Source of the DNA: Bacteroidota bacterium
Lineage (GTDB): Bacteria > Bacteroidota > Bacteroidia > Chitinophagales > Chitinophagaceae
DNA length: 64,000 nt
Assembly (NCBI GenBank): GCA_947453145.1
Contig: CANGFA010000009.1
Span: 1 to 64,000 of the forward strand
Direction: 5' to 3'
In this document: piece after piece, positions 28,824 through 30,966 of the stretch
Position numbering within the stretch: the stretch's first letter is position 1
Layout of the letters: each line of letters starts with the position of its first letter
Program-made: the position numbers and the translations under genes
The notes under the pieces: generated by a model
Told to the model about the DNA's origin: nothing
Seen by the model: only the letters and a program-made list of their open reading frames with translations
The model's database searches: none

Positions 28824-29744
28824 ATGTCTTTAGTAGTAGTTGGCTCCATGGCCTTTGATGCCATTGAAACTCCCTTTGGGAAAAGTGATAAAATTATTGG
28901 TGGTGCTGCCACTTATATTGCTTGGTGTGCTTCCAATTTTACCCCAGTTAAACAAATTTCGGTAGTAGGTGGGGACTTTCCTCAATCTGAGCTAGATGCA
29001 TTAACAAATAGGGGTGTTACTTTAGAAGGTGTACAAATTAAAAAAGACGAAAAAACATTTTTCTGGAGCGGCAAATATCATTTAGATATGAATACGCGTG
29101 ATACCTTGGATACGCAATTAAATGTATTGGAAAACTTTCAACCTGTTGTTCCAGAAAGCTACCAGGATTGTGATATTTTAATGTTGGGAAATTTAGTTCC
29201 AGGTGTACAAAGCAGTGTGATTAAGCAAATGAAAACCCGTCCTAAATTAATCGTGATGGATACGATGAATTTTTGGATGGAAATAATGTTAGATGATTTA
29301 TTGCACACAATTAGTTTAGTAGATGTATTAATGGTAAATGATAGCGAAGCACGTCAATTAAGTGGTGAATATAGTTTAGTGAAAGCGGCTAAGAAAATCA
29401 TGGCCATGGGTCCTAAATATTTAATTATTAAAAAAGGGGAACATGGCGCTTTATTGTTTCATAACAACGAAGTGTTCTTTGCACCTGCATTGCCTTTGGA
29501 AGAAGTATTTGATCCAACTGGTGCTGGTGATACTTTTGCGGGTGGTTTTGTAGCTCATTTAGCAAAGACTAAAGATTTTTCTTTTGAAAACATGAAGTCT
29601 GCCATTATATTAGGTTCAGCAATGGCTAGTTTCTGCGTGGAAAAATTTGGTACACAGCGTTTAACAGAAATTAATATGGACGAAATTAAAGACCGCGTAC
29701 AATCGTTTGTTTCGTTGGTTAATTTTGAAATAGAGTTAGTTTAA
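28824..29744 (+). CDS. PfkB-family carbohydrate/nucleoside kinase
   Basis: A 306-residue ribokinase-fold kinase. The C-terminal signature FDPTGAGDTFAGGFVAHL contains the catalytic Asp and anion hole, and IGGAATYIAWCAS near the N-terminus is the substrate-binding glycine region. The middle motif LMVNDSEARQLSG is typical for the family. The start ATG 28824 gives MSLVVVGSMAFDAIETPFG; the frame is open 40 codons further upstream, but that stretch is AT-rich, includes the -7 box and lacks family similarity. The substrate is not readable; Bacteroidota homologues are simply called sugar kinases. Its stop codon touches the -33 box of the asd leader promoter. Confidence 0.87.
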   Translation: MSLVVVGSMAFDAIETPFGKSDKIIGGAATYIAWCASNFTPVKQISVVGGDFPQSELDALTNRGVTLEGVQIKKDEKTFFWSGKYHLDMNTRDTLDTQLNVLENFQPVVPESYQDCDILMLGNLVPGVQSSVIKQMKTRPKLIVMDTMNFWMEIMLDDLLHTISLVDVLMVNDSEARQLSGEYSLVKAAKKIMAMGPKYLIIKKGEHGALLFHNNEVFFAPALPLEEVFDPTGAGDTFAGGFVAHLAKTKDFSFENMKSAIILGSAMASFCVEKFGTQRLTEINMDEIKDRVQSFVSLVNFEIELV

Positions 29745-29776
29745 TTTGGCGAATTGCATGTATCCAATTAATTTTG
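29745..29776 (+). promoter_or_regulatory. promoter of the asd leader
   Basis: TTTG at 29745-29748, 20 bases, TAATTTTG at 29769-29776: a full match to the Bacteroidota consensus. It begins directly after the PfkB kinase stop (29742-29744). The transcript should start about 29781-29783, immediately before the leader-peptide ATG codons. Confidence 0.7.
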
Positions 29777-29783
29777 TTCCACA

Positions 29784-29828
29784 ATGATGAAAAATAAACA
29801 TACAAAACAAATTAAGAAACCACGCTAA
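29784..29828 (+). CDS. putative asd leader peptide, MMKNKHTKQIKKPR
   Basis: A 14-codon open frame with two adjacent ATG codons (29784, 29787) and stop TAA at 29826-29828. Five of 14 residues are lysine, including the tandem AAG-AAA at 29814-29819; there is also one Thr and one Ile. It sits at or within a few bases of the predicted transcript start, so it would be translated from a leaderless or nearly leaderless RNA. Stalling at the tandem Lys codons would leave the antiterminator strand (from 29831) uncovered, while a ribosome at the stop codon would cover it. The lysine bias could partly reflect A-rich DNA, so the peptide is inferred from its position and from the alternative RNA structures that follow. 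Confidence 0.6.
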   Translation: MMKNKHTKQIKKPR

Positions 29829-29907
29829 GCGGAAGGTCTGATTGTTTGTATGTAAATAAATATACTCAGAAGCCTTCCTAGAAATTGGGAGGCTTTTTCT
29901 TTTTTTA
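29798..29907 (+). promoter_or_regulatory. transcription attenuator upstream of asd (candidate lysine-responsive)
   Basis: Three competing pairings are visible. (1) 29798-29810 with 29842-29853, twelve pairs and one bulged A, overlapping the leader-peptide codons. (2) Antiterminator: ggaaggtctga (29831-29841) with 29866-29870 and 29873-29878, eleven pairs around a two-base bulge. (3) Terminator: agccttcc (29871-29878) with gggaggct (29887-29894), followed by T-rich 29894-29907. Pairings 2 and 3 share 29868-29878 and exclude each other. Aspartate-semialdehyde dehydrogenase feeds lysine/diaminopimelate, threonine and methionine synthesis, so amino-acid control is functionally sensible. Confidence 0.65.
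29868..29907 (+). terminator. intrinsic terminator inside the asd leader
   Basis: Stem 29868-29878 with 29887-29897 (core agcc-ttcc with gggaggct, one T-G pair), loop tagaaatt, then tttttctttttttaag. It lies 61 bases before the asd ATG and has no gene of its own to end except PfkB, 124 bases upstream, which fits a conditional terminator. Confidence 0.8.
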
Positions 29908-29967
29908 AGTTTTTGTAAAACATAAGACTTAGAAAAAGAATAATTAACGACGAATAAAAAATAAAAT

Positions 29968-30964
29968 ATGAAAGTTGCAGTAGTAGGTGCCACGGGGCTA
30001 GTTGGCACAAAAATGTTACAAGTACTAGCTGAAAGAAATTTTCCAGTAACTGAATTAATTCCAGTAGCTTCTGCTCGTTCAGTTGGCAAGGAAGTAATAT
30101 TTAAAGGAAAGTCATACAAAGTAGTAGGCATGGAAGAGGGTATAGCAGCTAAACCTGCTGTTGCTATTTTTTCAGCTGGCGGTGGTACTTCAACGGAGTG
30201 GGCTCCAAAATTTGCTGCTGCTGGTATTCGTGTAATTGACAACTCATCGGCATGGAGAATGGATCCTACCAAAAAGCTAGTTGTTCCTGAAGTCAATTCA
30301 AGTGTATTAACTGCCGAGGATATGATTATCGCGAATCCTAATTGTTCAACCATTCAAATGGTGGTTGCCTTACAACCATTACATGTTAAATATAAAATTA
30401 AGCGTGTAATTGTGAGCACTTATCAAAGTGTAACGGGTACAGGTAAGCAAGCAGTAGATCAATTAATGAATGAGCGTGTAGGAAAAAAAATGACTGCCGA
30501 AGATATGGCTTATAAATATCAAATTGATTTAAATGCTATTCCTCAGATTGATGTTTTCTTAGAAAATGGATACACAAAGGAAGAAATGAAGATGGTAAAA
30601 GAAACTTGTAAAATCATGCAAGACGACAACATCAAAGTTACAGCTACAACGGTTCGTATACCCGTAATGGGAGGCCATAGTGAAAGCGTAAATGTGGAGT
30701 TTGAAAATGAATATGATTTAAAAGAATTGATAGCTGAGTTAGCAGTTGCTCCTGGTGTTGTAGTTCAACAAGACGATGCAAAACAATTTTATCCAATGCC
30801 ATTATGGGCACATGAAAAAGACGAGGTATTTGTGGGTCGTTTACGTCGTGATGAAACACAAGCAAAAACATTAAACATGTGGATTGTGAGCGATAACTTA
30901 CGCAAAGGCGCTGCAACCAACGCAGTTCAGATTGCAGAGTATTTGGCTGCAAAAGGAATTATTT

Positions 30965-30966
<2 letters not shown>
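29968..30966 (+). CDS. asd: aspartate-semialdehyde dehydrogenase
   Basis: Reduces aspartyl phosphate to aspartate-4-semialdehyde with NADPH, the branch-point step to lysine/diaminopimelate, threonine, methionine and isoleucine. The 332-residue protein has the nucleotide-binding GATGLVGTKML, the catalytic Cys126 in IANPNCSTIQM, and the VTGTGKQAVDQL and PVMGGHSESVNVEF motifs (catalytic His). Its length is usual for the bacterial Asd family. It is preceded by its own promoter and an attenuator. Its stop codon directly abuts the stop of the convergent ligA. Confidence 0.96.

Follow-up and report, generated by a model that had tools for sequence, protein, structure and literature searches.

Upstream of asd we identified a leader that very probably acts as a ribosome-mediated transcription attenuator sensing charged tRNA-Lys (probability about 0.88). 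It lies in the 64,000-nt stretch of DNA analysed here (the window), which belongs to a genome of 2.13 Mb in 57 contigs. Three overlapping pairings, which we call protector, antiterminator and terminator, are encoded in the leader, with the terminator placed between a short reading frame and asd. Re-reading the sequence bore out every coordinate that a preliminary description had given for the promoter, the frame, the AAG-AAA codons, the three pairings, the terminator and asd, and its identification of asd agrees with a score of 430.6 bits for NF011456 against a cut-off of 223. The features are as follows:

28824–29744, + strand: gene for a PfkB-family carbohydrate kinase (Pfam PF00294, E = 1.7e-33), upstream neighbour of the leader
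29745–29776, + strand: Bacteroidota-type promoter, with TTTG at 29745–29748, 20 nt, then TAATTTTG at 29769–29776
29784–29828, + strand: near-leaderless leader frame MMKNKHTKQIKKPR of 14 codons, with ATG at 29784 and stop codon TAA at 29826–29828
29798–29810, + strand: segment 1, the 5′ arm of the protector helix, within the leader frame
29814–29819, + strand: control codons AAG-AAA (Lys-Lys), outside all three pairings
29831–29841, + strand: segment 2, the 5′ strand of the antiterminator, ggaaggtctga
29842–29853, + strand: 3′ arm of the protector helix, partner of 29798–29810
29866–29878, + strand: segment 3, common to antiterminator and terminator, tcaga-ag-ccttcc, partner of 29831–29841
29868–29907, + strand: intrinsic terminator, with its stem at 29868–29897 and a T-run
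29968–30966, + strand: asd, aspartate-semialdehyde dehydrogenase (NCBIfam NF011456 and TIGR01296 above cut-off)

The form TTTG-N20-TAnnTTTG is what we take to be the promoter type of Bacteroidota, and inspection of the sequence places the opening of the leader frame 7 nt past it. We propose that RNA polymerase starts at the leader ATG or a few bases from it and that a ribosome loads on the near-leaderless frame. The protector would form first, its arms being the first to emerge. When Lys-tRNA is scarce, the ribosome would wait at AAG-AAA, where its body would open the protector and stop just short of 29831; segment 2 could then pair with the emerging segment 3, and transcription would continue into asd. 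When Lys-tRNA is plentiful, a ribosome at the stop codon would cover segment 2, and segments 3 and 4 would form the terminator. Without translation, the protector would enclose segment 2 and the terminator would likewise form. The ribosome reaches 11–12 nt ahead; on this basis, a ribosome whose A site holds the second Lys codon extends to about 29828, with segment 2 beginning at 29831, and one at the stop codon extends to about 29837, covering the GGAAGG core. Translation of the frame, the kinetic competition between helices and the response to lysine are predicted parts of this model.

The frame is held at fixed distances from segment 2. An ATG 43–54 nt ahead of segment 2, combined with a stop codon −6 to +12 nt from the segment 2 start, is present in 46 of 47 leaders, compared with a mean of 1.99 and a maximum of 6 of 47 in 200 dinucleotide shuffles; such a frame with at least four Lys codons is found in 44 of the 47 (shuffles: mean 0.18, maximum 2). 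The stop codon follows one of two designs, lying either just before segment 2, as in the leader of the window, or just behind it, and either design leaves segment 2 covered once the ribosome is at the stop codon. Among the 43 leaders having a Lys-Lys pair, 36 have its end 10–13 nt ahead of segment 2; the pair stays outside the three pairings, and AAA and AAG are both in use. In a slot test, segment 2 was placed blind to the codons, and the codons ending 8–18 nt ahead of it were then read. Every asd leader that could be scored (99 of 99) had Lys in this slot; the 47 seed leaders are part of this count, and some genomes enter it twice. Six of the 105 leaders examined were unscorable, four lacking a triple and two (L014 and L196) lacking an ATG frame. 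In L014, GTG appears to stand in for ATG as the start codon, again in the near-leaderless position.

The occurrence of the layout was surveyed in 110 regions upstream of asd, 30 from loci of the genus and 80 from named contigs; leaders were recognised by scanning for a terminator combined with segment 2 and by visual inspection. It precedes asd in 48 of the 110 regions (25 of the 30 genus loci and 23 of the 80 named contigs), the total including two loci, L064 and L077, whose upstream sequence of less than 90 nt is beyond judging. The closest named matches to the genome carrying the window, Sediminibacterium, Niastella and Filimonas among them, point to Chitinophagaceae as its family. Many of the 57 named contigs without a leader carry names from different groups, for example Mucilaginibacter, Pedobacter, Dyadobacter or Flavobacterium. 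In the five genus loci without a leader, asd directly follows a kinase-like gene (as judged by eye), and frame and terminator are both absent.

The comparison of relatives that the preliminary description had proposed found the frame, the Lys codons and all three pairings kept, with compensatory changes in the terminator and the protector. Pairs were counted in an alignment of 47 leaders from which L035 had been removed as a repeat of L020; a second alignment (A2), in which segment 4 was badly placed, was set aside. Pairing holds in 97.2% of terminator cells and 81.7% of protector cells, each of the two helices having 31 double-change cells; none of 500 shuffles reached either result. The antiterminator is paired in 93.9% of cells and shows 4 double-change cells, which 8 of 500 shuffles reached, and sliding this helix out of register gave 1–6 double-change cells. 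The antiterminator helix thus has little covariation of its own, and this covariation is undercounted because segment 2 is wrongly placed for L024 and L040 in the alignment used (A1). In these two leaders, segments 2, 3 and 4 change together (GGGGC/GCCCC/GGGGC), a joint change of three strands that is the best support for the antiterminator. Protector duplex energies had a mean z of −2.2 relative to shuffled arms, with no excess over shuffles for the protector of L028. Because the arms are strongly conserved, an arm from a different leader frequently pairs no worse than the cognate one (36 of 46 for L010, for example).

Folding of the leader without a ribosome (29780–29907) yielded −31.1 kcal/mol (z = −3.9), a value that none of 200 shuffles equalled, and the best fold consists of protector and terminator. 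The longer stretch to 29967 has a z of −7.4, partly because of a second A/T-rich hairpin behind the terminator. This hairpin spans 29893–29935 and includes the terminator T-run; by eye, a similar sequence is present in the close relatives L005, L007, L011 and L012.

To model the ribosome, we masked the nucleotides it would cover in 45 leaders, in which the anchor Lys is present by construction, L053 and L062 having been excluded as they have no Lys in the anchor slot. With the ribosome stalled at Lys and segment 4 (the terminator 3′ arm) not yet included, 44 of 45 leaders have the antiterminator as their best fold; with the ribosome moved to the stop codon, 0 of 45 do. This matches the geometry put forward in the preliminary description, in which segment 2 is free at the Lys stall and covered at the stop codon. 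When the whole leader is folded with the ribosome stalled at Lys, the terminator is preferred in 42 of 45 leaders and the antiterminator wins in two. Since the terminator is preferred in the complete leader despite the stalled ribosome, the switch would have to be kinetic, acting during transcription. With no ribosome and segment 4 not yet included, 38 of 45 leaders favour the antiterminator over the protector. Both results speak against a purely thermodynamic reading of the switch.

The link between codons and pathway was examined with a covariance model (R1) built from the asd leaders and run with stricter filters on 298 genomes of the order. All 71 matches listed at E ≤ 1e-5 precede amino-acid genes: 59 asd, 5 dapA, 5 hisG and 2 genes for a class I/II aminotransferase. 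Among weaker order-level matches (>1e-5), 9 of 20 loci in one subset lie before hisG or trpE, as do 2 of 10 in another (L199–L208), the other 8 of which do not. Seven further matches in the genome carrying the window (L113–L119, E 0.001–0.02) include none before asd, dapA, hisG or trpE. The codon runs are His before hisG (HHHH, for example), Trp before trpE (WWW) and Lys before dapA; these leaders mostly have the same near-leaderless start, and the run lies 12–19 nt from segment 2. In the slot test, Lys was found in 5 of 5 dapA leaders (5 examined), His in 10 of 11 hisG leaders (12 examined) and Trp in 2 of 2 trpE leaders (2 examined). Within the genus, a His-run leader with antiterminator and terminator precedes hisG in 30 of 30 loci (L209–L238), and a WWW leader with both elements precedes trpE in 18 of 20 (L269–L288), the two exceptions being cut by contig ends; the genome carrying the window has one of each (L227 and L281, both on contig C10).

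That hisG is preceded by His codons and trpE by Trp codons in the same layout indicates that the codon run tracks the product of the downstream gene. The asd gene stands at the head of the pathway leading to lysine; dapA belongs to the lysine/diaminopimelate branch and not to that of threonine or methionine. The Lys codons before this branch-specific gene therefore point to lysine, and not threonine or methionine, as the signal. No Lys leader with terminator was found before dapA in 27 of 30 genus loci, those whose dapA start was located (all but L247, L253 and L268), the genome carrying the window included, and thrA of the same genome has no Thr-rich leader. The codon swap in the hisG and trpE leaders is a stronger control than the comparison of asd leaders proposed earlier; together with conservation, it argues for the lysine attenuator that the preliminary description had put forward. 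The anatomy of the leader, its spacing, its conservation, the covariation of terminator and protector and the match of codons to pathway are the demonstrated parts of the attenuator model.

Other readings of the asd leader were considered and rejected. The first of these, which we think very improbable, is that the nascent peptide rather than the codons stalls the ribosome; its basic KKP motif would then make it an arrest peptide responsive to lysine or to some other ligand. The leader peptide is strongly basic, and K-H-T-K-R/Q-x-K-K-P is conserved in many relatives. However, the residues following KK vary (P, R, Q, H, L and G, among others), and distant leaders keep little but their Lys codons (L080, MATIIIKCTTKKHSAKGRL; L038; L048). 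The conservation of His-Thr-Lys can be explained because the part encoding it is a protector arm, and these residues are altered in several leaders that retain the Lys codons. Moreover, the codon before the anchored Lys is replaced in 5 of 45 leaders, by I, N, T or M and never by Arg, and the sister leaders exchange Lys for His or Trp.

Still less probable is a terminator that merely ends transcription of the kinase gene, with asd transcribed from a separate promoter located beyond it. The kinase gene is the immediate neighbour on the same strand, where a terminator would be unremarkable, but a full promoter separates the two, and no full −7 match occurs between terminator and asd in any of the 47 leaders, a gap that in seven leaders measures only 19–31 nt. 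Where the leader is missing, in five genus loci, the terminator is missing as well, and a plain terminator has no need of a frame, a protector or segment 2. Given the empty gap, transcription of asd seems to rely either on the promoter of the leader or on polymerases reading through from the kinase gene.

A riboswitch or protein-bound leader using the same alternative hairpins, with an incidental short frame, is equally remote: alternative hairpins alone would fit many regulators, but the window has no Rfam family at gathering score, the 60 family genomes have no RF00168, the start, stop and Lys codons of the frame sit at fixed distances, unlike those of an incidental frame, and the codons follow the pathway in sister leaders.

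To return to the attenuator, a full TAnnTT(T/C)G match is found 2–14 nt ahead of the leader ATG in 41 of 47 leaders, and the best −7 match ends 7 nt ahead of it in 27 of 47, which would put the predicted transcript start at the ATG or within a few bases of it. The preliminary description had called the near-leaderless start unusual for an attenuator; within this group it appears to be the usual arrangement. Leaderless mRNAs are reported to be rare in the phylum by two transcript maps, with about 3.7% of 5′ UTRs shorter than 10 nt in one (PMC7366714) and 5.5% in the other (PMC9723704), which makes the near-leaderless design notable as a standing feature of these leaders. Leaderless initiation is also discussed for the ilvBNC leader of Corynebacterium (PMC11857589).

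To place the leader among known systems, we searched Rfam 15, which at gathering score matched neither the window nor any of the 17 related loci tested. Subthreshold matches of the leader (E up to 5; Phe_leader at 22–24 bits against a cut-off of 55) were taken as chance. The lysine riboswitch RF00168 was found in 0 of 60 genomes of the family, with 4 of 14 control genomes positive. This riboswitch resembles the asd leader in controlling lysine genes in cis; unlike it, the riboswitch has no leader frame and binds lysine directly. The asd RNA motif of lactic acid bacteria, an Rfam entry, also precedes asd and is absent among the Rfam matches obtained here. The classical amino-acid leader attenuators are trpL, hisL and thrL of enterobacteria. 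With these the asd leader shares a short frame with control codons, mutually exclusive pairings, a U-run terminator and, as predicted here, control by a stalled ribosome. It differs from them in that it would sense lysine, has a Bacteroidota promoter, serves the single gene asd and has its frame at or near the predicted 5′ end, whereas the classical frames lie behind a ribosome-binding region.

The attenuation mechanism is already known; its lysine-codon version was not found described. Neither Rfam 15 nor the accessible, largely open-access literature contained a lysine leader attenuator, so that priority is unproven, and the same literature gave no description of how lysine/diaminopimelate supply is controlled in Bacteroidota without a lysine riboswitch. 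There is a likeness to the Cys attenuators that mycobacteria are reported to have (Canestrari et al. 2020, cited in PMC9031893 and in PMC9094748): going by the citing passages, these too are leaderless, and their short frame repeats the codon for the amino acid sensed. They sense Cys and not Lys, belong to another phylum and are likened here by description. Within the phylum, leader attenuation has been suggested upstream of amino-acid operons of Flavobacterium psychrophilum, in a passage that names no lysine leader (PMC9723704).

We lean towards a broader reading in which the near-leaderless attenuators of Chitinophagaceae form one scaffold with swapped control codons and switch strands (Lys codons with asd and dapA, His codons with hisG, Trp codons with trpE); its lysine form would stand in for the lysine riboswitch and be the first lysine-codon attenuator described. 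The asd leader would add lysine to those amino acids that ribosomes on leader frames sense. The cell wall depends on a supply of lysine and diaminopimelate, and the leader makes control of this supply testable codon by codon.

The codons of a leader may also give a clue to the pathway in which the gene behind it acts. In L195 and L198, a class I/II aminotransferase gene lies behind a Lys-codon leader (MNNKPYKKDKKRIPQR and MTRKLHKSKKHLPNR), which suggests a role of this enzyme in the lysine/diaminopimelate pathway. By eye, a similar frame with a GGCTTACC-type hairpin is present in at least 3 of 30 more loci from the bacterial family (L308, L313 and L331); in L308, Lys is not in the control slot. 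Finally, a fused aspartokinase-homoserine dehydrogenase gene lies behind a Thr- or Ile-rich short frame in L302, L303, L305 and L306 (clearly so in the first three). These four loci share a conserved stretch like TTGTACATTNCCATATTACC with no evident U-run terminator, and their leader is perhaps of a different kind.
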